A DNA stretch of 64,000 nt from NCBI RefSeq assembly GCF_004345665.1, contig NZ_SLWR01000011.1, forward strand, positions 124,001 through 188,000, given 5' to 3'. The position numbers and the translations under genes were made by a program. Positions 2,825 through 18,071 of this stretch are shown here, piece after piece. Under the pieces are notes generated by a model. The model saw nothing but the letters and a program-made list of their open reading frames with translations. It made no database searches and was not told where the DNA came from. The stretch's first letter is position 1. Every line of letters starts with the position of its first letter. This stretch comes from Kribbella antiqua (lineage in GTDB: Bacteria; Actinomycetota; Actinomycetes; Propionibacteriales; Kribbellaceae).

Positions 2825-2868
2825 GGTAACCGGTAACCTGACGTCTCATCGTGTGAGGGGTGAGACGT
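2825..2868 (+). promoter_or_regulatory. Tandem GGTAACC repeat and hairpin covering the GTG start
   Basis: GGTAACC occurs twice head to tail at 2825-2831 and 2832-2838. Directly after it, ACGTCTCA (2841-2848) is perfectly complementary to TGAGACGT (2861-2868). The second arm takes in the first two bases of the GTG start of the next gene, and the G-rich ribosome-binding region lies in the 12-nt loop. This could be a translational control hairpin; function is inferred only. Confidence 0.4.
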
Positions 2869-4018
2869 GACTGAACCGGGACACGTGATCCGGAAGCTCG
2901 AGCAGGCGCTGGCCGACGACGACTTCGCCTGGTCGCTGCTGCTGGTCGGCGAGGACCAGACCGACAAACTGGCCACTCTGACCGGTGACCTGCGCGGCCC
3001 GGTGTCGACAACCGGCGACGGCAAGCAGATCACCTCCGGGTTCTCGTACTGGGGCATCGGCCCGACCATCGCCTGGGCGAATGCGACCAACGACCCGTTC
3101 TACCTGGTCATGAAGGCCGGCGCCGAGTCGTTCCTGCGGCACTGGCGCAAGGTGAAGCCGCATGTCACCAAGGCGGGTTTCCACTTCGTCAGCCTCGGCA
3201 TCGGTACCGGCATCAAGGACCGGACCATCCTGGAGGACCTGCGCCGAGCCAACCGGAACATGTTCTACATCCCGGTCGACATGAGCTCCGAGATGCTCCG
3301 GATGGGCACCCAGGAGCCGGTCCGCGGCGCCCGGTTCCCGGCGTCGCAGGTGCTGCCGGTGCAGCTCGACTTCTCCATCGCGGACAACATGGTGGAGCTG
3401 GCGCAGATGCTGGCCCGGCTGGTCGGCGACGAGCCGCTGCTCTACACCCTGACCGGCAACACGCTGGCGAACTTCGAGAGCGACGAAGACCTGCTCCAGC
3501 TGATCACCGACGTACTGCGGCCGCAGGACCGGCTGCTGCTGGAAGTCGCGAGCACCACCCGGCTGGACCAGGAGACCGCCGATGCGGCCGCGGACGAGTA
3601 CCACCAGACGCGGGCGTTCGCCGAGTTCGTCACCAGCGCGCTGCGGTACAACACGGACCTGAAGATCGACAACGAGCGGGTCAAGTTCATCGGCGAGGTC
3701 GAGGACGAGGACGCGCTCCTGGTCAAGATCCTCTGGCAGAACGACACCGGCGGCGAGATCCGGATGGGCCTGCCCGACCACACCGAGGTCGTGCTGCCGG
3801 TCGGCGACACCATCCGCCTCTACACCACCCGCAAGTACTCGACCACCCGGCTGAAGCGGCTCACGGCGGCGTGCAAGCTCACTCCGGTGGAGGCCATCCA
3901 ATCGCAGTTCCGCTACACCCGCCGGCCGAACCCGTTCGGCCTGGAGCTCCTCCTGCTCGCCCCCGAGGCGGCCGGCGAGGAGGAGCACACCCTGGCTGAC
4001 GACATCTGGTCAACTTGA
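2867..4018 (+). CDS. EgtD-like SAM-dependent methyltransferase (Methyltransf_33 family)
   Basis: 383 residues from a GTG start. A SAM-binding SLGIGTG is at 109-115, DMSSEML at 138-144, and LTGNTLANF at 195-203, corresponding in order to the glycine loop, acidic loop and post-motif strand of the L-histidine N-alpha-methyltransferase domain. No egtB or other ergothioneine gene is near, so the histidine substrate is not supported and the protein could act on another amino group. The stop codon TGA (4016-4018) lies inside the terminal TTGA of the adjacent TnpB element, so the last codons may have been changed by that insertion. Confidence 0.7.
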   Translation: MTEPGHVIRKLEQALADDDFAWSLLLVGEDQTDKLATLTGDLRGPVSTTGDGKQITSGFSYWGIGPTIAWANATNDPFYLVMKAGAESFLRHWRKVKPHVTKAGFHFVSLGIGTGIKDRTILEDLRRANRNMFYIPVDMSSEMLRMGTQEPVRGARFPASQVLPVQLDFSIADNMVELAQMLARLVGDEPLLYTLTGNTLANFESDEDLLQLITDVLRPQDRLLLEVASTTRLDQETADAAADEYHQTRAFAEFVTSALRYNTDLKIDNERVKFIGEVEDEDALLVKILWQNDTGGEIRMGLPDHTEVVLPVGDTIRLYTTRKYSTTRLKRLTAACKLTPVEAIQSQFRYTRRPNPFGLELLLLAPEAAGEEEHTLADDIWST

Positions 4019-4190
4019 CGTCCTCCCCGCCCTGGAGGGGTGGGGATTCCAACTACTACACGGAGGCAGCGAGTTGAGGTTCACGCTTCGGCGAGACCCG
4101 TATGGGCGTCTCTCGGCGTGCGCTGACGGCCCGTCCGGCCGCGATGTTGACCGCCGCGTTCACGTCCGCGTGCGCCTGATGTCCGCAGGC
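4015..4190 (-). ncRNA. Probable omega RNA region of TnpB copy 1
   Basis: In studied TnpB elements the guide RNA scaffold comes from the 3' end of tnpB plus the right end, and the guide is the flank past the right end. Here the scaffold would end GGGGAGGACGTCAA at 4015. The flank read as guide would be the minus-strand bases complementary to 3995-4014, inside the 3' end of the EgtD-like gene. The 5' limit given is arbitrary. Confidence 0.4.
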
Positions 4191-5252
4191 TACGCACCGG
4201 AAGACCGCTTGGCTCTCACGGTTCTCCGGCGCGCAGTGCCCGCAGACACTGCAGGTCTGGGACGTGTACGCAGGGTTCACTTTCTCGACCCGTCCCGACG
4301 CCTTGTCCTCCAGGCGCTGGACGAGCAGTCCCCAGCCGTTGGCCAGGATGCCCCGGTTCAGTCCCGCCTTGGCGCGGCGCCGGTTCGGCCGGTAGGCGCC
4401 CGGTCGGCCGGGATCAGGTTTCAGTTTGGGGCGTCTGGTCATCTGGGCGATGCGCAGGTCCTCCACGCGGATCAGGTCGAACCGCCGCGCGAGGTCCGTG
4501 CTGGTCTTCTCCACCCAGTCTTTGCGCCGGTCACCGGCCCGGGCAGACAGCTTCGCGATCGCCGCCTTCGCCCGCCGATGCCGGTTCGAGCCACGACGGC
4601 ACCGGGCCAGGCGGCGTTGCAGGCACTTCAGCCGGACCTGCTCGCGCTCCGACAGGCCGGGGCAGGTCAGGAGTTCACCGGTGGACAGAGCGGCCGATAC
4701 CGCGACACCGCGGTCCACCCCGACGACCTCACCAGTCCCCGGTACTGGGATCGGCGGCGGGACGACGGCGAAGGCGAGGTGCCAGCGCCCCACCCGATCG
4801 CGAGTGATGCGGTACGACTTCGCGTCGGGAATTGCACGGGACAGCCGGAACCGCACCCAGCCGACCTTCGGTACCAGTACCCGCGCCCACTTCCGGTTCA
4901 GCTTCACGATCCGGGTCGCCTGGGCGCCGACGACGCGGAACCCTTCGTGCAGCCCGGCCTTGCGCCAGGTCGGCCGCCGGTGGGTGCCGGCGTAGAAGTT
5001 CTTGACGGCCTGGCCGAAGTCCCGCAGCGCCTGCTGCTGCACAGTCTGCGACCCGGTCCGCAGCCAGCCGAACGCGGCCCGCGCTTCGGTCAGTTGCCGC
5101 GCCTGCTCGACGTACCCAGGCGTCGGTCCCTTGTCGCGATGCCACATCGACCACTGCTCCAGCGCCAGGTTCCACACGTACCGGACGTGCCGACAATGTC
5201 CCAGCAACGCAGCCTGCTGCGCAGTCGTCGGGTACAGCCGGAACCGGGACAT
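4056..5252 (-). CDS. tnpB: TnpB, RNA-guided endonuclease-like protein, copy 1
   Basis: 398 residues from the ATG at 5252 (MSRFRLYPT). An N-terminal OrfB helix-turn-helix segment is followed by a RuvC-like nuclease core with the expected residues: D180 (GVDRG), E264 (RVEDL) and D363 (HADVN). A zinc ribbon has C334-x2-C337 and C353-x2-C356. All catalytic positions are intact and the length is normal for the family. It is about 90% identical to the copy at 23421 and the same length. An upstream in-frame start at 5348 would run through the left-end hairpin and is rejected. Confidence 0.92.
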   Translation of the reverse strand: MSRFRLYPTTAQQAALLGHCRHVRYVWNLALEQWSMWHRDKGPTPGYVEQARQLTEARAAFGWLRTGSQTVQQQALRDFGQAVKNFYAGTHRRPTWRKAGLHEGFRVVGAQATRIVKLNRKWARVLVPKVGWVRFRLSRAIPDAKSYRITRDRVGRWHLAFAVVPPPIPVPGTGEVVGVDRGVAVSAALSTGELLTCPGLSEREQVRLKCLQRRLARCRRGSNRHRRAKAAIAKLSARAGDRRKDWVEKTSTDLARRFDLIRVEDLRIAQMTRRPKLKPDPGRPGAYRPNRRRAKAGLNRGILANGWGLLVQRLEDKASGRVEKVNPAYTSQTCSVCGHCAPENRESQAVFRCVACGHQAHADVNAAVNIAAGRAVSARRETPIRVSPKREPQLAASV

Positions 5253-5297
5253 GCCAGGTATCCAATCAGCCGGGACCGACAGTCCCTGGTCTCCGAC

Positions 5298-5356: not shown

Positions 5357-6064
5357 ATGACTCAAGGCGATACGACGAACGAGCCCGATCTGACGCCCGG
5401 AGCCGCGAACGGGCGGAGCGTGCAGCAGGCGCGGAGGCGGGCGCTGGCCAGGCTGCGTCTGGTGCGGATGGCGCTTCCGTTGGTGGACGGGCGCTGGGCG
5501 GCGTACCGCCGTTCGATCGTCACCGCCGTCAGCTACGGATTGCTCGGGCTGGCCTTCGTCCTCGGCGTGATCTGGTTCTTCTGGCCGGAGAACTCGCGGT
5601 GGGAGCCCGCGGTCAACTCGCTCACGCTCGTCGCCGGGCTGACCGGTATCTTCGTCGAACGCCTGACCGCCGAGGCCGAGCGCCGTACCGAAGTCCTCCG
5701 GGCGGTCGCGGACGAGCTGCGGGACAACACCAGGCTGCTCAACGACGAGCGGTTCTCGCCGCAGGCTCCGACCAGCCGCCAGGTGTACCCGCGATTGGTG
5801 GTATCCGCGGTCGACCTCGCGCTGGTCTCCGGTGCCCTCGGGCTGCACCGCGACGCCGAGCTCGTGGGCCTGCTGCACCGCTGGCGCGACACTGTGCACC
5901 TGTTCAACCGCCGCCTCGACCTGACCGAGATCAGCACGTTTTCCAACACCGTCTCGCAGGCCGACCTGGCCGCGTTCCACCGCGCGCTGCACCGCGAGAA
6001 CAGCTACTTCGCCGCCACCCGACAGATGCTCGAGAACCTGCTCAGCCGCCTCCCACCGGCCTAA
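5357..6064 (+). CDS. Membrane protein of unknown function
   Basis: 235 residues, not recognised. After an Arg-rich N-terminus (about residues 24-50) there are two likely membrane helices (about 53-75 and 86-105), then a soluble helical region rich in Arg/Glu and Leu. There is no signal peptide. The start ATG lies only about 20 bp beyond the left end of TnpB copy 1, so the gene's native upstream region has probably been displaced by the insertion. It runs in the same direction as the EgtD-like gene on the other side of the element and may once have followed it directly. Confidence 0.65.
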   Translation: MTQGDTTNEPDLTPGAANGRSVQQARRRALARLRLVRMALPLVDGRWAAYRRSIVTAVSYGLLGLAFVLGVIWFFWPENSRWEPAVNSLTLVAGLTGIFVERLTAEAERRTEVLRAVADELRDNTRLLNDERFSPQAPTSRQVYPRLVVSAVDLALVSGALGLHRDAELVGLLHRWRDTVHLFNRRLDLTEISTFSNTVSQADLAAFHRALHRENSYFAATRQMLENLLSRLPPA

Positions 6065-6127
6065 CGGCTGAGGCCGAGTACGTCTGGGGTGTCGCCGGGA
6101 AGAGCTGTTCCGAGTTGATATCAGCCG

Positions 6128-6172
6128 TTGACAGCCGAATTTCGATCCGGCTACTTTCGGTCCTGACCGTTA
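6128..6172 (+). promoter_or_regulatory. Promoter with palindromic operator CGGTC-CT-GACCG
   Basis: TTGACA (6128-6133) and TACTTT (6152-6157) are spaced by 18 bp and make a good vegetative-type promoter. Immediately downstream, CGGTCCTGACCG (6158-6169) is a perfect palindrome with a 2-nt centre, where a bound repressor would block initiation. The same palindrome lies before the enolase-superfamily gene (10320-10337) and, weaker, before the regulator (12482-12491). Confidence 0.7.
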
Positions 6173-6209: not shown

Positions 6210-7490
6210 ATGAAACCCACGCTGCAATCGACCGTCCGCCGCATCGCGGCACCACTCACCGCTCTTGTGCTGGCGGCCGCACTCGGATCGTGCGGCGACA
6301 ACTCGGGCGGCGGCTCCTCGTCGGAGACCAAATCCATCACGCTCTGGATGTATCCGGTGATCGGCGACCAGGCGGCCAGCGACACGTACTGGCAGAAGGT
6401 CGAGAAGGACTTCGAGGCGGCCAACTCCGGGATCGACCTGAAGCTCGAGATGCAGCCGTGGGCGAACCGCGACGAGAAGATCGCGGCCGCGTTCGCCGGC
6501 AAGAAGGGCCCGGACGTCGTACTGATGATCCCGGACCAGCTGCCGCAGTACGTGAATAACGGCTCGCTGGAACCGGTTGACGACGTGGTTGCCCAGGACA
6601 AGGACAAGTTCCTGCCGGCCGCGATTCCCGGCCTGACCGTGGACGGCAAGGTCTACGCGGCGCCGATCTACCACACCGTCACCTCGACGATGTTCAACAA
6701 GACGATCCTGACCAAGGCGGGGATCGGCAAGCCGCCGGAGACCTGGGACGAGATCAAGGCCGCGGCGCCGAAGATCAAGGCAGCCGGCTTCTCGACCCTC
6801 GACTACTCCGCCTCGCCCGAGGCGTCGCTGAACCTCAACTTCTACCCGCTGCTCTGGCAGGCCGGCGGCAAGGTCTTCGCCGACGACGGCAAGACCGTCG
6901 CGTTCAACCAGGCCCCGGGCCTGGAGGCGCTCACCTTCCTGAAGACGCTGTGGGACGAGGGGGCTATTCCGAAGACAGCGTTGACCAACGGGAACGTGGT
7001 GGCTGACCAGCCGTTCGGCAAGGGCCAGGTCGCGATGGCGATGACCAGTACGCCGGCCGACGCGGGCACCGTGGCGAAGACGTGGGGTGCGGCAAACGTA
7101 GAAGTCGGTACTCCGCTGACCGGCAAGAAGCAGGTGGGTTTCGGTCTGCCCGGTGGTCTGGCGGTGAACGCTGCCTCGGAGAACGTCGACGCGGCGAAGA
7201 AGTTCCTGTCGTTCATGATCCAGCCGGCCCAACTGGAAGATCTCAGCAAGGCATCCGGTTTCTACACCCCACGCACCGACGTCAAGGCGCCGGTCACCGA
7301 CCCGGCCGTCGCGAAGTTCGCCGACGCCCTGCAGTACGCCGTACCAGGTGAACCGAACGCCGCCGCCCGCCAGGTGATGTCGCTCCTGAGCGCGGAAATC
7401 CAGGCCGCCCTGACCGGCAAGAAGACCCCCCAACAAGCCCTCGACGACGCCGCCGAACAAGCCAACGACCTCCTCTCGAGACAACGTTGA
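6210..7490 (+). CDS. ABC importer substrate-binding lipoprotein (carbohydrate family 1)
   Basis: 426 residues with a lipoprotein signal peptide: positively charged start, hydrophobic core, and lipobox LGSC about residue 28. The mature protein has the features of family 1 extracellular solute-binding proteins (opening SITLWMYP, MFNKTIL hinge, PPETWDE). ATG 6210 follows a GGGGGTG site. It is the first gene of an importer with the two permeases that follow, the next starting inside its stop codon. Family 1 proteins usually bind oligosaccharides, but the linked enzymes suggest an acid or other small ligand. Expression is probably controlled by the operator 40 bp upstream. Confidence 0.9.
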   Translation: MKPTLQSTVRRIAAPLTALVLAAALGSCGDNSGGGSSSETKSITLWMYPVIGDQAASDTYWQKVEKDFEAANSGIDLKLEMQPWANRDEKIAAAFAGKKGPDVVLMIPDQLPQYVNNGSLEPVDDVVAQDKDKFLPAAIPGLTVDGKVYAAPIYHTVTSTMFNKTILTKAGIGKPPETWDEIKAAAPKIKAAGFSTLDYSASPEASLNLNFYPLLWQAGGKVFADDGKTVAFNQAPGLEALTFLKTLWDEGAIPKTALTNGNVVADQPFGKGQVAMAMTSTPADAGTVAKTWGAANVEVGTPLTGKKQVGFGLPGGLAVNAASENVDAAKKFLSFMIQPAQLEDLSKASGFYTPRTDVKAPVTDPAVAKFADALQYAVPGEPNAAARQVMSLLSAEIQAALTGKKTPQQALDDAAEQANDLLSRQR

Positions 7491-8434
7491 CCGAGGCCAG
7501 GCAAGCGCCGGACACGGGCCGGGCGGGGCCCGCGTCCTCCATCACCCGGTCCGCGTCGCGCGCAGCGCGGCGCGGACCGCGGCGGCGACCTTGGGTCGGG
7601 CTCTTGTTTGTGGCCCCGATGCTCCTGCTCTTTCTCGTCTTCCGGATCCTGCCGGTCATCGGTGCAGCGCTACTCTCACTCACCGACTACCGGCTCAGCG
7701 GGCGCTGGACTTTTATTGCCCTTGACAACTACACGCGGCTGTTGACCGACAGTCTGTTTCACCAGGCGTTGGGGGTGACGCTCACCTACACGGTGATCTT
7801 CGTGCCGCTGACGGTGCTGTTGTCGCTCGGGACCGCCGTACTGCTGCATCAGGTGGTCTGGCGGCGCGGCTTCTTCCGCGGCGTGTTCTTCCTCCCGTAC
7901 GTGACCAGCATCGTGCTCGCCGCGGTGATCTGGAAGTGGATCTACGACGTTCAGGACGGCCTGCTCAACGCCGTCCTCGGCCTGGTGTCGATTGGGCCGG
8001 TGGACTTCCTCGGCGAGTCCAACCTGGTACTGCCGTCGATCGCGGTGACCTCGGCCTGGAAAGGCTTCGGCTACTCGATGCTGATCCTGCTCTCCGGGCT
8101 GCAGGCGGTCCCACGCTCGTACCTCGAGGCTGCGATGATCGACGGCGCCGGCGCGTGGCAACGTTTTCGGTACATCGTCCTGCCGCAACTGCGCCCGGTG
8201 CTCTTCTTCGTCCTGGTGATCGAGACCATCGGCGCATTCCAGGTCTTCGATGCGATGTACGTGATGACCGGCGGCGGCCCGGTCCGCTCCAGCTACTCGC
8301 TCGTCTATTTCCTGTACGACAGCGGTTTCAAGTACTTCGACTTCGGCTACGCCAGCGCGATCGGCCTGGTCCTGTTCGCAATCGTTCTCATCGTCTCGCT
8401 CGTACAGCGACGGCTGGTCGGAAGGGAGGACTGA
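7487..8434 (+). CDS. ABC importer permease (MalF-like)
   Basis: 315 residues with six membrane helices and the EAA loop (EAAMIDGAGAWQRFRYIVLPQLRP) that contacts the ATPase. The TTG start at 7487 lies inside TTGA, the stop of the binding protein, so translation is coupled. The first 40 residues are Arg-rich and cytoplasmic. Forms a heterodimer with the next permease. No ATPase is encoded in the cluster, so a shared MsiK-type ATPase elsewhere in the genome is likely. Confidence 0.9.
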   Translation: MTEARQAPDTGRAGPASSITRSASRAARRGPRRRPWVGLLFVAPMLLLFLVFRILPVIGAALLSLTDYRLSGRWTFIALDNYTRLLTDSLFHQALGVTLTYTVIFVPLTVLLSLGTAVLLHQVVWRRGFFRGVFFLPYVTSIVLAAVIWKWIYDVQDGLLNAVLGLVSIGPVDFLGESNLVLPSIAVTSAWKGFGYSMLILLSGLQAVPRSYLEAAMIDGAGAWQRFRYIVLPQLRPVLFFVLVIETIGAFQVFDAMYVMTGGGPVRSSYSLVYFLYDSGFKYFDFGYASAIGLVLFAIVLIVSLVQRRLVGRED

Positions 8435-9303
8435 TGGTCAACCTGCTCGAACGACCGCGCCTGCGAGACACGGCACCGGCGCCGAGGACCGAGCGACGAG
8501 CCGCACGGTTGACGCTTCCTACCTTGCTGACGTTGACCGCGATCGTGACCATCCTGCCGTTCGCGGCGATGGTGGTGGTCGCGTTCGCGCCACCGAGTGG
8601 CCAGACGTTCCCGGACGCACTGAACCCGGCCAACTTCACCTTCGGGAACTTCCAGCGGGTCCTGTCGAGCTCGGACATCCCACGCTGGACGGTCAACTCG
8701 CTGTTGTACTCGCTCGTCTCGGTGGTGTGCGTGCTGCTGTTCGCCGCGATGGCCGGCTATGCCTTCGCGAAGAAACGGTTCCCCGGCCGGGAGATCATGT
8801 TCTGGGCCTTCCTGGCGACGCTGATGGTGCCGTTCCAGGCGACGCTGATCCCGTCGTACATCCTGGTCTCACGGCTCGACTGGGTGGACAGCTACTGGGG
8901 TCTCATCGTGCCCACGCTGGCGAACTCGCAGGCCGTCTTCCTGCTGCGGCAGTTCATCAGCCAACTGCCGGATGAGCTGTTCGAGGCGGCCGAGATCGAC
9001 GGTGCGCCGGAGTGGCGGATCTTCACGATGATCGTGCTGCCGCTGATCCGCCCGGCGCTCGCCACGCTCGGCATCTTCGTCTTCCTCTGGCACTGGAACG
9101 ATTTCCTCTGGCCGTTGGTGATCGGCCAGTCCCAGCAGATGCAAACGTTGACTGTCGGACTGGCGACTCTGCAGACGCAGGCGGTTCCGATCAACCAGGT
9201 GATGGCCGGCGCGACCATCACCGTCGTACCGAGTCTGCTGGTATTCGGTCTGTTGCAACGTTATCTGACCGACAGCATCGCAATGTCCGGCCTCAAGGGC
9301 TGA
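8434..9303 (+). CDS. ABC importer permease (MalG-like)
   Basis: 289 residues with six membrane helices and the EAA motif (EAAEIDGAPEWRIFTMIVLPLIRP). It ends with the short tail SGLKG common in MalG-type subunits. ATG 8434 overlaps the TGA of the preceding permease (TGATG) and follows GGGAGGA. Last gene of the importer transcription unit; it converges with the LLM oxidoreductase after a 10-bp gap. Confidence 0.9.
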   Translation: MVNLLERPRLRDTAPAPRTERRAARLTLPTLLTLTAIVTILPFAAMVVVAFAPPSGQTFPDALNPANFTFGNFQRVLSSSDIPRWTVNSLLYSLVSVVCVLLFAAMAGYAFAKKRFPGREIMFWAFLATLMVPFQATLIPSYILVSRLDWVDSYWGLIVPTLANSQAVFLLRQFISQLPDELFEAAEIDGAPEWRIFTMIVLPLIRPALATLGIFVFLWHWNDFLWPLVIGQSQQMQTLTVGLATLQTQAVPINQVMAGATITVVPSLLVFGLLQRYLTDSIAMSGLKG

Positions 9304-9313
9304 GGAGGCTGCC

Positions 9314-10279
9314 TCAGAGAAGGTTGCCGAAGGCCTCGATCGACCGGAGTACGTCGGCCTGCGGCATCCCCGGCGGCTGGATTCGGAGAATGATGCCGTC
9401 GGCACCCATCTGCTCATAGTGCGCGAGCCGCTCAGCGCACTCAGCCGGCGAGCCGATCACACTGCGCGCGACGATGTCGTCCCAGCCCTGGGTGTAGCGG
9501 CTCGCGTCCGTCGACGTGCGTTTCCAGCCCGTGTAGGCGTCGTACAAATCCCGCAGTGGCTCCTCCAACGCCCGCCGAGCGTCCTGCGACGTGGGAGCGT
9601 TAAACCCTTCCCGGCAAAGGATCACGTCGCGCCCCAACGTGCCTTCGCCACTTGGATACGACAGGTACTCAGCGATCTTCGAAGGCAGGTCCGAGTCCAG
9701 TTCATTGAAAGACGTCGTCCAGCCGTCGCACATCCGCGCGGTCCGCTCCAGTACGGCGGACACTCGCCCGCCGTTCCACAGTCGCGGCCGTGGATTCTGC
9801 AGCGGCCGCGGCGACAGAAACGCCTCGCGGATGCTCGTGAACTTCCCGTCGTACGTCACCTCGTCCTCGGTCCACAACCGGGTCAGGATCGTCAGGGACT
9901 CCTCGAACCGCGCGACCCGCTCGGCCTGCGTCACGCCGTACAGCGCGAACTCCTCCGGCCGATACCCGAGCACGAACCCGGCCGTGAGGCGACCACCCGA
10001 CAGTACGTCGATATGCGCCAGCGTCTCGGCCAGAACGACGGGGTCGTACAGCGGCGCCACGATGCCGGACGTGGCCAGGCCGATCCGGTCCGTCTTGGCG
10101 GCCAGCCAGGTCAGCGAGGTGAGGATCTCGTGGTACCCGGGCCGATGCAGGTGACGCTCGCCGAGGACGATCCAGTCGAACCCGGCCTGCTCGGCCAGCC
10201 GTGCCTGCTCGACGGCGTCCTCGAGCGCGGGCCGCTCGCCCGGTGTGCCGTAGAGGTTCAGATAGAGACCCAGCCGCAT
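9314..10279 (-). CDS. LLM-class flavin-dependent oxidoreductase
   Basis: 321 residues beginning MRLGLYLNLY, with the TIM-barrel features of luciferase-like monooxygenases: GERHLHRPGYHEILTSL, IGLATSGIV, and the SPAECAERLAHYEQMGADGII segment near the C-terminus. Members use F420 or reduced FMN and act on varied substrates including sulfonates, aldehydes and xenobiotics. It reads divergently from the enolase-superfamily gene and shares its palindromic control region, so it is probably part of the same pathway. No flavin reductase is nearby. The precise substrate cannot be inferred. Confidence 0.85.
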   Translation of the reverse strand: MRLGLYLNLYGTPGERPALEDAVEQARLAEQAGFDWIVLGERHLHRPGYHEILTSLTWLAAKTDRIGLATSGIVAPLYDPVVLAETLAHIDVLSGGRLTAGFVLGYRPEEFALYGVTQAERVARFEESLTILTRLWTEDEVTYDGKFTSIREAFLSPRPLQNPRPRLWNGGRVSAVLERTARMCDGWTTSFNELDSDLPSKIAEYLSYPSGEGTLGRDVILCREGFNAPTSQDARRALEEPLRDLYDAYTGWKRTSTDASRYTQGWDDIVARSVIGSPAECAERLAHYEQMGADGIILRIQPPGMPQADVLRSIEAFGNLL

Positions 10280-10296
10280 CAGGGGCCCACCTTCCG

Positions 10297-10337
10297 TTGA
10301 CAGAGAGCGCTCACGGTATTTACGGTCTTGACCGTAA
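10297..10337. promoter_or_regulatory. Divergent control region with perfect operator palindrome
   Basis: TTACGGTCTTGACCGTAA (10320-10337) has two perfect 8-bp arms and a TT centre, and sits between the LLM gene (start 10279) and the enolase-superfamily gene (start 10376). A TTGACA box at 10297-10302 lies upstream of it, and both it and the importer promoter begin GTTGACAG some 27-31 bp before CGGTC. It is the strongest copy of the regulon motif. Confidence 0.7.
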
Positions 10338-10375
10338 GTCCTTTTAGCTCGGATTGCGACCCTGAGGAGCCGGAT

Positions 10376-11491
10376 TTGAGTGTTGTAACGGATCCGGTCG
10401 GGCTGCCGGCCGGCCCGGGGGCCGGGCCGATCACCGCGATCAAGACCCGCGTGGTCAGTGCACGGTACCGCCGGCCGTTCCGGATCAGCAGCGGAATCAG
10501 CACCGAATTGATCAGCCTGGTGGTCGAGATCCACACCGCGGACGGCGTGGTCGGCATCGGTGAGACATCGCCGATGACGGCGTACACCGGGGATACGCTC
10601 GCAGGTGTCACCGCTGCCATCGAAGATCACCTCGCGCCGACTCTGATCGGCCGTGATCCGCTTGACCGGGCCGGCGCTCACCGGGTGATGGACGCCGTCC
10701 TGCGCGGGCAGCACGTGGCCAAGTCCGGCCTCGACATCGCGCTCTACGACCTGGCCGGCCGGATCAGTGGCTGGCCCGTGCACGCTCTGCTCGGCGGCAG
10801 CATCAGAGACCGCGTGCAGACCACCTGGGTCGTCGGGCTCGGCACACTCGACGAGATGGCGGCCGAGGCAGCGGCGTACGCCGACAAGGGTTTCCGGCAC
10901 CTGAAGGTCAAGGGCGGGCATGACCCGGCCAAGGACCTGGAGCTGGTCAAGGCTGTCCGGGCAGCCATCCCTGCCGATGCAGAGCTGTGCCTGGACGCCA
11001 ACGAGGGGTACGACGCCGCGACAGCACCGGTGCTCGCCAAGATGGCTGCTGCCGGGCTGACGCTCTTGGAGCAGCCGCTGCCACGTTGGGACCTTGCAGG
11101 CCTCGTCCGGCTGCGTGAGCGTCTCGACGTACGACTGATGGTCGACGAGAGCATGCACTCGCTGCAGGACGCTCTGGAGATCGTCAGGCGTGGTGCGGCC
11201 GACGTACTGAACATCAAGATCCTCAAGGTTGGTGGACTGCACCGGGCCCTGCAGATCGCGAACCTGGCCGAGGCTGCGGGCCTGGCGGTGAAGGTGGGCT
11301 CGATGCCCGAGCTGGGGGTTGCGACGCTGGCTGCAGTTCACCTGGCGGCCGCCGTACCAGGTGCGACGGTTGCAGCCGACCTGGTCGGCCCACTGATGGT
11401 GCATGAGGATCCGCTGGCTCCGAGTGCCTTTGCGGACTGCAAGGGCTGGGTAGACGTACCCACACGGCCTGGACTCGGCCACGAGGTCTGA
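10376..11491 (+). CDS. Enolase-superfamily enzyme (mandelate racemase / muconate lactonizing type)
   Basis: 371 residues from TTG 10376, which follows GAGGAG. The longer frame from 10328 would begin inside the operator and is rejected. The catalytic set of the MLE subgroup is visible: KVK (about 177-179), metal ligands D207 (DAN), E232 (EQP) and D257 (DES), and a second Lys (about 281, NIKILKVGG). The barrel thus has two general bases, as in epimerases, cycloisomerases and some acid sugar dehydratases. The DapA-family gene follows after 8 bp, which suggests a racemase or dehydratase step feeding a lyase (inference). Confidence 0.88.
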   Translation: MSVVTDPVGLPAGPGAGPITAIKTRVVSARYRRPFRISSGISTELISLVVEIHTADGVVGIGETSPMTAYTGDTLAGVTAAIEDHLAPTLIGRDPLDRAGAHRVMDAVLRGQHVAKSGLDIALYDLAGRISGWPVHALLGGSIRDRVQTTWVVGLGTLDEMAAEAAAYADKGFRHLKVKGGHDPAKDLELVKAVRAAIPADAELCLDANEGYDAATAPVLAKMAAAGLTLLEQPLPRWDLAGLVRLRERLDVRLMVDESMHSLQDALEIVRRGAADVLNIKILKVGGLHRALQIANLAEAAGLAVKVGSMPELGVATLAAVHLAAAVPGATVAADLVGPLMVHEDPLAPSAFADCKGWVDVPTRPGLGHEV

Positions 11492-11499
11492 GAGGTCCT

Positions 11500-12489
11500 A
11501 TGCACCCACTAGTCGAGCACCTGCGCGGCACACTGCTCCCCGCCGTCGTCACGCCGATGAACGCCGACGGTGTCATCGCGTACGACGCTCTGGCCGCGTA
11601 CGCCGAGCAGATCGCGGCAGGGCCCATCGGCGGGGTCGCGGTATGGGCTCACACTGGTCGCGGGCTCTACCTGTCTCGTGCTGATCGCTCCAAGGTGCTG
11701 GAGACGTGGCGGCAGGCGACTGACTTGCCGATCGTCGCGGGGGTCGGCGTACCTCGCTCTGACAGCGCACACACTCTGCAGGAGGCCGCGGACGCGACTG
11801 TGGCGATGGCTTTGCAGGCTGCGGCGGGTGGGGCGGACGCTGTGATGGTCTACCCGCTGGCTGCGCTGGGAGCCTTGCCGGACGGGCATGCGCAGGCTGT
11901 GGCGTTGCATGAGCGGGTTGCGGCGGAGAGTGGGCTCCCACTGGTCGGCTTCTACCTGCATGGCGAGGCTGGCGGATATCCGTACCCACCCTCGTTGATC
12001 CGCGACCTGTTGGGCTTGCCGTCGATGCTGGGCGTCAAGACGGCCACGCTGGACCGGGCTATCGGGTGTCAGGATGCGCTCTGGGCCGGCCGGGGTACGG
12101 GCAAGTTGTTGATCACCGGTGAGGACCGGATGTTCGGGCCGTCGTTCATGTGGGGCGCCGACACCGCGCTGGTCGGGATCGCGGCGGCTCAGGTCGAGCT
12201 CTCGGCGGCTGTGCTCCGCGCCTGGACGGCAGGCGACCACACAGCCTTCTTGAAGGCGTCCGACCGCCTGGACCGCTTCGCTGCCGCGACGTTCTACGCA
12301 CCCATCGAGGGCTACGTGCAGCGGATGCTCTGGGCAGCCGTGTGGGAAGGCCTCATCCCATCGGACGCCGGGTATGACCCTTACGGCCCGGATCTGCCCG
12401 CGGGTGAACGCGAGCTGGTGATCCGGTGTCTCGACGATCTCGCGGGTGGGGCGCTCCCTCCTCGCCCCACTCGCCAATTGTGGTCTTGA
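11500..12489 (+). CDS. Dihydrodipicolinate synthase (DapA)-family aldolase/lyase
   Basis: 329 residues of a class I aldolase TIM barrel. The Schiff-base lysine is K180 (LGVKTAT) and the conserved active-site tyrosine is probably Y152 (VGFYLHGEAGG). The GTGR region near 52-55 is where true DapA has GTTGE, so it is not standard lysine biosynthesis. Members of this group include KDG, KDGalactarate and N-acetylneuraminate lyases. It follows the enolase-superfamily gene after 8 bp. Its stop codon TGA (12487-12489) lies inside the weak copy of the regulon palindrome. Confidence 0.85.
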   Translation: MHPLVEHLRGTLLPAVVTPMNADGVIAYDALAAYAEQIAAGPIGGVAVWAHTGRGLYLSRADRSKVLETWRQATDLPIVAGVGVPRSDSAHTLQEAADATVAMALQAAAGGADAVMVYPLAALGALPDGHAQAVALHERVAAESGLPLVGFYLHGEAGGYPYPPSLIRDLLGLPSMLGVKTATLDRAIGCQDALWAGRGTGKLLITGEDRMFGPSFMWGADTALVGIAAAQVELSAAVLRAWTAGDHTAFLKASDRLDRFAAATFYAPIEGYVQRMLWAAVWEGLIPSDAGYDPYGPDLPAGERELVIRCLDDLAGGALPPRPTRQLWS

Positions 12490-12525
12490 CCGAAACTAGG
12501 GACTCCGCTCCGGCTGGTCAAGAGC
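12482..12525 (+). promoter_or_regulatory. Weak regulon operator pair before the regulator gene
   Basis: GGTCTTGACC (12482-12491) is a 4-bp-arm version of the palindrome found at 6158 and 10320. A degenerate second site GGTCAAGAGC lies at 12516-12525, centred 34 bp further on. This arrangement would fit autoregulation of the downstream regulator gene. Confidence 0.45.
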
Positions 12526-12588
12526 TCGGGCGGCGGGTGCGCTATTCTGCGACTTGAGGGCTGGACCAGAAGTCTGTGGAGGAGTGCC

Positions 12589-12624
12589 GTGCAGATCAGT
12601 CTCATCCCTGGCGCGGTGGCCTGA
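12589..12624 (+). CDS. Possible 11-residue leader ORF coupled to the regulator
   Basis: GTG 12589 has an excellent GGAGGAG site 5-11 bases upstream (12578-12584) and reads MQISLIPGAVA before TGA 12622-12624, which overlaps the ATG of the regulator (TGATGG). The regulator's own ATG lacks a good site, so translation may depend on reading this mini-ORF. Alternatively the regulator starts at in-frame GTG 12576 and the mini-ORF is chance. Confidence 0.35.
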   Translation: MQISLIPGAVA

Positions 12625-13841
12625 TGGCCCTCACGGTCGGCGTCATCGGCCCGGAAGACCTGGTCGAGCGCGTCGTCGCGATCGGTCCGCCGAGCGGTGC
12701 GACGCTGGTCCCGCTGCCGTACCGGCACGAGACCGAAGCCGTCGAACTGGTCGAGCAGTCCCACGTCGATGCTCTCCTCTTCACCGGCGTCGTTCCGTAC
12801 ACGATCGCCACCGAAGCCGGCGTCATCGACTGCCCGGCCATGTACGTCTCGTACGACGGCGCCACCCTGCTGCGCGCGTTGGTCGAACTGCTGCGGCTGG
12901 GGCACAACGTCACCCAGTTCTCGATCGACACCCTGCGCCGCAGTGAGGTGCTCGAGACGCTGATCGAGGCGAAGCTGCCGACGGACCAGATCCAGGTGCT
13001 GCCGTACCGGCCCGGCCTGACCTCCGACGACATCGTCGCGTTTCACCGGAACGCGCGGGAGAAGCACGACAGCAAGGTCGCGATCAGCTGCCTGGGTTCG
13101 GCCTTTCACCTGCTGGAGAACGAGATGCCGTCCGTCCGGCTCGCGCCGTCGCGGTACTCGATCCGCTCGACTCTCCAGGCGCTCGTCCTCACCACCGCCA
13201 GCCAGCACGTCGGCGACGCCCAGGTCGCCCTCGGCATCGTGGACCTCCCCGAGCCGGACGACGGCTTAGCCGCCGACCTCATCACGCTTGGCGGCAGCCT
13301 CGCCGCCCTCCCCGATGGCCGGCACCTGGTCGTCACTACCCGTGGTCTGCTCGAGCAGGCGACCGAACAGTTCAGCCGCATGCCTCTGCTCGACCACCTT
13401 GCAGCGCGGCACAGCACGGCGTACGTCGGTTTCGGCGTCGGACGTACGGCGGCCGAGGCCGAAGCCCTGGCCCGTCGCGCAGTGAGTCGCGCAACCTCGA
13501 TCGGCAGCGTCGCCAGTGTCGTATCGATGTCGGACGACGTGGAGATCGTCATCGAGCCCTGCGGCGATCAGCCGGCCACCGAACGCGGCCCCGAAAGCCT
13601 CCCGCTCCTGGCTCGCCGGGTCGGCCTGAACACCCAAACCCTGTCCCGCATGCGCGAACTGGTCGCCACCCTCCCCGACGGCCTCACCACCCAAGACGTC
13701 GCCGACCACCTGGCCGTCCAACTACGCACCGCCCGCCGAGTCCTCAAACGCCTGGAACGAGCCGGCCTAGCCGCCCCCACCGGCACCCACCAACAAGGCC
13801 GCACCGGCCGCCCACCCACCGTCTACCTCATCCGCCTCTAA
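12624..13841 (+). CDS. Transcriptional regulator with Rossmann-like sensor, degenerate cyclase-like domain and C-terminal winged helix
   Basis: 405 residues. The first 110 or so alternate strand and helix with LLFTGVVP and CPAMYVSYDG, resembling a PrpR-N-like sensor fold. A middle part ends in YVGFGVGRTAAEAEALARRAV, like the degenerate GGDEF-type domains of PucR/CdaR-type regulators. The last 75 residues form a winged helix (LTTQDVADHLAVQLRTARRVLKRLERAGLA). It closes the catabolic cluster and is the best candidate to bind the CGGTC-YT-GACCG sites. Exact family not recognised. Confidence 0.7.
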   Translation: MALTVGVIGPEDLVERVVAIGPPSGATLVPLPYRHETEAVELVEQSHVDALLFTGVVPYTIATEAGVIDCPAMYVSYDGATLLRALVELLRLGHNVTQFSIDTLRRSEVLETLIEAKLPTDQIQVLPYRPGLTSDDIVAFHRNAREKHDSKVAISCLGSAFHLLENEMPSVRLAPSRYSIRSTLQALVLTTASQHVGDAQVALGIVDLPEPDDGLAADLITLGGSLAALPDGRHLVVTTRGLLEQATEQFSRMPLLDHLAARHSTAYVGFGVGRTAAEAEALARRAVSRATSIGSVASVVSMSDDVEIVIEPCGDQPATERGPESLPLLARRVGLNTQTLSRMRELVATLPDGLTTQDVADHLAVQLRTARRVLKRLERAGLAAPTGTHQQGRTGRPPTVYLIRL

Positions 13842-17048: not shown

Positions 17049-18071
17049 CTACGGGTTGATGATCGTGACGCCGGCGGGGGTGGTGGTTGAGAGGGCGGCT
17101 AGGGCGGCGGGGGTTTGTTCGAGGGTGATGGTTCGGGTGATGAGGTCTGCTGGTTTTAGGTTGCCGGTGGCAACTAGGTTGAGCATTTCGGGGTAGGCGT
17201 GGGCGGGCATGCCGTGGCTGCCCAGCCATTGGAGTTCCTGGCCGATGAGGCGGCCTACGTCGAGTTGGACGCCGGACGGGAGGAGGCCGACCTGGAGATG
17301 GCGGCCGCGGGGGCGGAGGGCGAGGAGGGCTTGCTGGACGATGTCGTTGGAGCCGAGGGCGTCCATGGTGACGTGAGCTCCGCCGCCGGTGAGATCGCGG
17401 ATTTCGTCCACAGTCTCCAACGACGCCTGGAGCGTGTCTGCGGCGCCGTACGAGCGAGCCAGTTTCAGCGCTTCCGGGTTGGTGTCGACCGCGATCACGC
17501 GGGCACCCAAAGCTGCGGCGATCATCACCGCCGACAGCCCGACTCCGCCGCAGCCGAAGATCACCACGTTCTCATCAGCGGCGACTCGCCCGACCTGTCG
17601 GACCGCCCGGAACGACGTCGCGAACCGGCACCCCAATCCCGCCGCCGTGTCGAAGTCCAACTCCAAAGGCAGCCGGACCAGATTCACCGACGCATACGGC
17701 AGTGCGACGTACTCCGCAAAGGAACCCCAGTAGTTGAACCCAGGCTGCAGCTGATTGGGGCACACCTGATGGTTGCCCTCGCGGCACTGCTCGCACACGC
17801 CACAGGCGCAGATGAACGGCGTGGTGACCCGATCGCCGACCTGCCAGCCCTGCACGCCCGGGCCGACGGCGGCGATCGTGCCGGCCAGCTCGTGCCCAGG
17901 GACGTGGGGCAGAACGATGTCCGGATCGTGCCCCATCCAGCCATGCCAATCGCTCCGGCACAGCCCGGTGGCTTCGACCTTGAGGACGACACCACCAGGC
18001 GCCGGCTCGGGTTGCGGGACTTCCTGGACTACCGGCAGAACGCCGTACTGCTCGATGACAACAGCGCGCAT
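17049..18071 (-). CDS. Zinc-dependent alcohol dehydrogenase (MDR family)
   Basis: 340 residues. Catalytic zinc ligands are in GLCRSDWHGW and GHELAGTIAAVG; the structural zinc cysteines are in CACGVCEQCREGNHQVC. The Rossmann motif GCGGVGLSAVMIA lies mid-protein, and the downstream AVDTNPEAL acidic residue favours NAD. It ends in the usual substrate domain. The stop of the MoaD-like gene upstream is 17 bp before its start, so it may be co-transcribed with the thrC unit. Substrate unknown. Confidence 0.88.
   Translation of the reverse strand: MRAVVIEQYGVLPVVQEVPQPEPAPGGVVLKVEATGLCRSDWHGWMGHDPDIVLPHVPGHELAGTIAAVGPGVQGWQVGDRVTTPFICACGVCEQCREGNHQVCPNQLQPGFNYWGSFAEYVALPYASVNLVRLPLELDFDTAAGLGCRFATSFRAVRQVGRVAADENVVIFGCGGVGLSAVMIAAALGARVIAVDTNPEALKLARSYGAADTLQASLETVDEIRDLTGGGAHVTMDALGSNDIVQQALLALRPRGRHLQVGLLPSGVQLDVGRLIGQELQWLGSHGMPAHAYPEMLNLVATGNLKPADLITRTITLEQTPAALAALSTTTPAGVTIINP

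Follow-up and report, generated by a model that had tools for sequence, protein, structure and literature searches.

The window, a 64,000-nucleotide stretch of Kribbella antiqua DNA, carries between positions 6210 and 13841 a candidate catabolic regulon that, according to the open reading frame (ORF) list and family models, encodes a CUT1-type binding protein, two permeases, a luciferase-like (LLM) flavoenzyme, an enolase-superfamily enzyme, a DapA-family protein and a regulator. The host genome measures 8.1 Mb and its nearest named relatives belong to Kribbella. All of the parts that a first-pass annotation of this DNA had named were recovered by family-model matches at or near the places it had assigned them. 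The genes and regulatory features are:

6128-6133: TTGACA, likely -35 box of the transporter promoter, read from the sequence
6152-6157: TACTTT, likely -10 element of the transporter promoter, read from the sequence; overlaps Operator 1
6155-6172: candidate Operator 1 (TTTCGGTCCTGACCGTTA), before the binding-protein gene; three mismatches to the palindrome described below
6210-7490, plus strand: CUT1-type solute-binding lipoprotein (SBP_bac_8, E 2e-39)
7487-8434, plus strand: ABC permease 1, UgpA-like (BPD_transp_1)
8434-9303, plus strand: ABC permease 2, UgpE-like (BPD_transp_1)
9314-10279, minus strand: LLM flavin/F420 oxidoreductase, 321 aa (Bac_luciferase, E 1e-52)
10297-10302, plus strand: TTGACA, the same in 20 loci and likely the -35 box of the enolase promoter
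10320-10337: candidate Operator 2 (TTACGGTC-TT-GACCGTAA), perfect 8+8 palindrome in the LLM/enolase intergenic region
10376-11491, plus strand: enolase-superfamily enzyme of the muconate-lactonizing enzyme (MLE) subgroup, with a Lys/Lys acid-base pair (MR_MLE_C, E 3e-55)
11500-12489, plus strand: divergent DapA-family enzyme, class I aldolase fold (DHDPS, E 5e-12, a weak match)
12478-12495: candidate Operator 3 (TTGTGGTCTTGACCGAAA), upstream of the regulator gene; three mismatches to the palindrome
12624-13841, plus strand: regulator with a PrpR_N-like sensor, a cyclase/GGDEF-like domain and a winged helix (helix-turn-helix (HTH) by Pfam; structure model)

An 18-bp palindrome, TTACGGTC-nn-GACCGTAA, recurs at three places: ahead of the transporter genes, in the gap between LLM and the enolase, and ahead of the regulator gene. 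At up to three mismatches these are the only sites in the whole genome, all within the cluster, and shuffles of the window gave on average 0.03 such matches per window. Operator 2 lies in the 96-bp intergenic region common to the divergent LLM and enolase genes, and all 18 of its positions are identical in 20 of 20 Kribbella loci, where its flanks average 0.86 and 0.71 identity; Operators 1 and 3 are maintained in most of the relatives that hold those stretches. As read from the sequence, the transporter and enolase promoters each have a TTGACA box, an 18-nt spacer and a TAnnnT hexamer lying over the operator, the enolase TTGACA box being 17 bp upstream of Operator 2. A survey of 292 actinomycete genomes found the exact palindrome in nine, all among the 17 with a regulator homologue (at least 40% identity), and in none of the 275 genomes that have no such homologue (Fisher test, 6e-13; the genomes are not independent), and a reversed control pattern gave no match in any of the 292. 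In other genera, exact sites occur near the regulator and before the genes of a related cluster, which has a short-chain dehydrogenase/reductase (SDR) epimerase gene followed by one for a second DapA-type protein, and also genes for a DegT aminotransferase, amidohydrolases, secreted propeller proteins, a 2-hydroxyacid dehydrogenase and the importer.

Transcribed from the minus strand, the LLM gene diverges from the enolase gene and converges on the transporter genes, and the cluster is therefore not one operon. The order LLM-enolase-DapA-regulator is maintained across the Kribbella loci compared, and at a locus in another genus (L068) every component is found in a different order, with 54-77% identity and an exact operator between the LLM and DapA genes. 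Because the order is kept in Kribbella and all parts reappear, reordered, in L068, the arrangement goes beyond chance, and linkage that is conserved despite rearrangement argues for a common function. One other genome, that of L068, has orthologues of both LLM (72%) and the enolase (67%), so that both are confined to the same 2 of 395 genomes, and neither was found alone in any of the 395. The invariant palindrome at LLM/enolase and this joint occurrence are the reasons for placing LLM in the pathway; its membership, and a single catabolic regulon that includes it, are well supported by these sequence comparisons. The first-pass annotation had proposed one pathway with its own regulator, to be abandoned if the LLM gene was not co-regulated with it; the palindromes tie transporter, LLM/enolase and regulator together, the orthologues co-occur, and the proposal is strengthened on both counts.

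The structure model of the regulator has a mean pLDDT of 83 and a pTM of 0.50, and its domain arrangement is uncertain. Residues 1-196 (approximately 180 aligned) match PrpR-type sensor folds (2q5c, Z 17.8; 2pju, Z 16.9), the middle domain is cyclase/GGDEF-like (1y10, Z 9.3) and the C-terminus is an ArsR-like winged helix (Z 9.3), the last two lying slightly above the chance level for common folds. A Pfam search of the regulator returned HTH only, with no sequence match to PrpR_N, no sigma-54 interaction AAA+ domain and no HTH_8, and assignment to the CdaR/PucR regulators was unsupported by Pfam. Nothing relevant to this architecture was found in the open-access literature. Homologues of the sensor domain (about 40% identity) also occur in a 440-aa protein of another family, f19 (L099, L104, L105 and L106), whose gene directly follows a MurA-like gene in many genomes.

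No gene for an importer ATPase lies within the cluster, and genes for three UgpC/MsiK-type ATPases, all scoring above the curated cut-off, lie at other places in the genome; with an SBP_bac_1/8 protein, two BPD_transp_1 permeases and an ATPase in trans, the components of a CUT1 carbohydrate importer are all present. In most relatives the transporter genes are preceded by a gene for a secreted protein, with its own operator-like site (compare L023, 1502-3734). Fold searches describe this protein as a double seven-bladed propeller with WD40-type proteins as top matches, and no specific enzyme that would point to a lyase or hydrolase was among the fold matches.

The ORF caller set the enolase start at 10328; a TTG at 10376 with an upstream GGAG fits the relatives. 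The motifs LKVKGG, LDANEGY, LLEQP, MVDES and LNIKILK align with the catalytic residues of 3jva, 2p88 and 1jpm, so that the KxK of strand 2, the metal-binding D/E/D and the strand-6 Lys of the MLE subgroup are all in place, and they are conserved in the orthologues (L068 has an LKLKGG-type KxK, KLK). Among solved structures, dipeptide epimerases and an N-acylamino-acid racemase-like enzyme come closest, with further matches to the hydroxyproline-betaine epimerase-like chains 4e8g and 4h2h. Dipeptide-epimerase specificity is defined by R24 and D321-x-D323 (B. subtilis numbering), the residues by which an L-Ala-D/L-Glu epimerase was recognised here; R24 and D323 align with Gly and Val, and this identity was rejected. 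Muconate cycloisomerase was likewise rejected (muconate/chloromuconate cycloisomerase model TIGR02534, 229.3 bits; cut-off 334.95), and the enolase falls under every curated family cut-off, including those for galactonate dehydratase (106 bits of 311) and talarate/galactarate dehydratase (114 of 500). Most known acid-sugar dehydratases belong to subgroups other than the muconate-lactonizing one, and the mandelate racemase (MR)-type acid-sugar dehydratases have an Asp-His dyad where this enzyme has the strand-6 Lys. Every reaction of the enolase superfamily begins with the removal of a proton adjacent to a carboxylate (PMC6946804), and the pathway would therefore pass through a carboxylic acid.

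The Schiff-base Lys of the DapA-family protein (GVKTATLD) is conserved across all aligned homologues, which places it in the class I aldolase superfamily. Pyruvate-type aldolases such as DHDPS, NAL and KdgD have a GTTGE loop, a Tyr and an Arg; this protein has AHTGRG instead of GTTGE and has not kept the carboxylate-binding Arg (positions from family knowledge), and the catalytic Tyr is replaced by Asp, Ala or Leu in its homologues. Its reading frame is 329 aa long in the window and about 314 aa in most relatives. Operator 3 overlaps the 3' end of this frame, and the C-terminus reads into the operator.

Against curated NCBIfam models, LLM scored 58 bits for alkanesulfonate monooxygenase (SsuD; cut-off 518) and 98 bits for dimethylsulfone monooxygenase (SfnG; cut-off 383), and came slightly under the cut-off of the F420-dependent family TIGR03619 (158.7 bits; 166.9). 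A role as a desulfonating monooxygenase was rejected on the two former scores, and the hint of a sulfonate substrate in the first-pass annotation loses its footing with it.

Further enzymes were found outside the locus. At four related loci (L029, L032, L034 and L036), the regulator gene has genes for a DegT aminotransferase and two Amidohydro_2 proteins running divergently from it. The genome analysed here has a DegT (62%) and both amidohydrolases (37-45%) at another locus (L062; C2:573-578 kb), beside a paralogous regulator that is 48% identical to that of the window. An operator-like site lies there between the paralogous regulator and DegT, and the SDR and second DapA-type genes that adjoin the regulator in other genera are lacking. 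Among 30 Kribbella genomes with the regulator, DegT is encoded only in the cluster in five, only in the paralogue cluster in 24, in both in one and in neither in none, a near mutual exclusion (Fisher test, 4e-5). DegT enzymes usually act on keto-sugars. One of the amidohydrolases keeps its metal ligands; the second may be a structural partner, because its HxH motif and terminal Asp have been lost. At a further locus (L064), a distant regulator homologue (30%) has an amidohydrolase pair for neighbours together with a HemL-like aminotransferase, an enzyme of another class that looks like a stand-in for DegT.

Our data suggest, with a probability of about 0.72, that these genes form one local regulon through which a carbohydrate-like compound is taken up and degraded by a non-phosphorylative route. 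The repression proposed here, like the reaction types and their order, is inferred from family knowledge. The regulator would bind the palindromes before the transporter genes, between LLM and the enolase and before its own gene, and most likely acts as a repressor as long as no small, perhaps carboxylated, effector is bound to its PrpR-like domain; repression is favoured because two of the sites overlap probable -10 elements, which a bound protein would be expected to occlude. The binding protein and the two permeases would import the substrate using a common MsiK/UgpC-type ATPase, after which DegT and the amidohydrolase pair may take off an amino group and open a lactone or amide. LLM would perform one oxidation, the MLE-type enolase would carry out a shift or an elimination at the carbon adjacent to a carboxylate, and the 2-keto acid so formed would be cleaved or dehydrated by the DapA-type enzyme. 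Our tentative guess at the substrate is a sugar or cyclitol that bears an amino or acid substituent, since a carbohydrate importer, DegT and carboxylate-handling enzymes co-occur.

Several observations weigh against this interpretation. Operators 1 and 3 each differ from the perfect palindrome at three positions, the conservation of the operators is mostly inside one genus, genomes are not independent samples, and 8 of the 17 regulator-bearing genomes have no exact palindrome site. An automatic promoter scan listed neither promoter, the -10 elements having been read by eye and that of the enolase being poor. DegT and both amidohydrolases are absent from the window, their role in this strain resting on distribution, and the copies in trans have a regulator of their own. 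The secreted double-propeller gene is also absent at 6065-6154, where only the transporter operator is kept, and no close relative of known substrate turned up.

We lean, somewhat beyond even odds, towards a broader interpretation in which a regulator family with a PrpR-like sensor, a cyclase/GGDEF-like domain and a winged helix governs, through the operator, a catabolic pathway in several actinomycete genera, and in which Kribbella recruited the MLE-type enolase and LLM beside a wider core (DegT, an intact and a metal-site-poor amidohydrolase, DapA-type enzymes, secreted double propellers and a CUT1 importer) for a carbohydrate not known to be degraded in this manner. Both the family and the pathway would be not yet described.

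The palindrome itself could be an intrinsic terminator or a mobile repeat, since a scanner called 10318-10339 terminator-like, with nine pairs followed by CCTTTTAG. We regard this as highly improbable: both divergent genes have the palindrome upstream of them, in other genera it turns up ahead of gene starts only if the regulator is present too, and the terminator reading was rejected because the palindrome is invariant in the 20 loci while the T-run differs among relatives. A similarly slight chance is given to the degradation of a sulfosugar or sulfonate with LLM as the desulfonating monooxygenase. The sulfo-SMO route, in which an LLM sulfoquinovose (SQ) monooxygenase is combined with a CUT1-type importer, is a precedent for such a pairing, but the LLM scores fall far below the sulfonate and sulfone cut-offs, neither a flavin reductase nor a sulfoquinovosidase was recognised in the gene content of the cluster and its relatives, and desulfonation is unlikely.

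Two other pathways deserve more weight, although we consider both doubtful. The classical acid-sugar route, in which the enolase forms a 2-keto-3-deoxy acid, DapA splits it into pyruvate and an aldehyde and LLM first oxidises the free sugar or a substituent, would agree with the CUT1-type importer, the adjacent enolase-superfamily and DapA-family genes and the lack of a kinase nearby. It follows the dehydratase and aldolase logic of the first-pass annotation, which does not sit well with an enolase that has the Lys pair of the MLE subgroup, resembles epimerases and racemases and scores under every dehydratase equivalog cut-off, nor with a DapA protein lacking the usual GTTGE and Arg positions and whose Tyr is replaced in homologues; it also has no need of DegT or amidohydrolases. 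Slightly less likely still is an amino-acid or betaine-like substrate, for which the enolase would racemise or epimerise an N-substituted amino acid, DapA would act as a deaminase, as in the catabolism of hydroxyproline, and LLM would be an N-dealkylating oxidase. The structural neighbours of the enolase, from dipeptide epimerases and the N-acylamino-acid racemase-like enzyme to 4e8g and 4h2h, fit this idea, but the importer is a carbohydrate system of the CUT1 type, Gly and Val replace the dipeptide-epimerase residues R24 and D323, and the usual keto-sugar preference of DegT enzymes points elsewhere.

No description of the gene set, or of the pairing of LLM with the enolase, was found in open-access text, and the earlier statement that no described pathway has this exact set therefore stands for that literature. 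Papers on the marine SAR202 Chloroflexota describe expansions of enolase and LLM paralogues and non-phosphorylative sugar-acid routes, but not this gene set (PMC10444878, PMC6946804). If the regulon interpretation is correct, the parts and the regulator of an actinobacterial catabolic module are defined, a short DNA signature allows its member genes to be picked out in any genome, and a small set of testable genes emerges whose MLE-, DapA- and LLM-type enzymes probably catalyse reactions that are not in databases.

Upstream of the cluster, a TnpB/OrfB-type protein (IS605 family, Cas12f1-like TNB domain) is encoded at 4056-5258 on the minus strand, between a Methyltransf_33 (EgtD-like) gene at 2867-4018 and the gene at 5357-6064; in two relatives (L025 and L028) the Methyltransf_33 gene adjoins the counterpart of 5357-6064, without a TnpB/OrfB-type gene in between. 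On the other side, a zinc-type alcohol dehydrogenase gene (17049-18071, minus strand) is separated from the regulator by four genes, with no operator seen, and a similar gene is immediately downstream of the regulator at L029, L032 and L036.

Among known systems, the sulfo-SMO sulfoquinovose pathway shares the combination of an LLM monooxygenase with a CUT1-type importer, but the LLM of the window is not of the SsuD/SQ type by curated models, and no recognised sulfoquinovosidase or flavin reductase accompanies it. The galactarolactone cycloisomerase-KdgD route of Agrobacterium likewise combines enolase-superfamily and DapA-family enzymes with an acid-sugar importer, and related routes include an amidohydrolase lactonase; it has no LLM or DegT, and the enolase of the window is of another family. 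The CdaR/PucR sugar-diacid regulators have a sensor, a degenerate GGDEF-like domain and then an HTH, the same order as in our regulator, which differs in having no Pfam match to their sensor, GGDEF_2 and HTH_30 models. PrpR of propionate catabolism (2pju) and its relative 2q5c share the sensor fold (Z 16.9-17.8), but in the regulator of the window a cyclase/GGDEF-like domain and an ArsR-like winged helix are found instead of the sigma-54 AAA+ domain. Dipeptide epimerases and N-succinylamino-acid racemase-like enzymes (3jva, 1jpm, 2p88) have the MLE-subgroup fold, the KxK/NxK lysines and the D/E/D metal ligands in common with the enolase, which is only distantly similar to them in sequence and has Gly and Val for R24 and D323; its DLVGP motif is nearer to the ELTGP/ELFGP of racemases and cycloisomerases.

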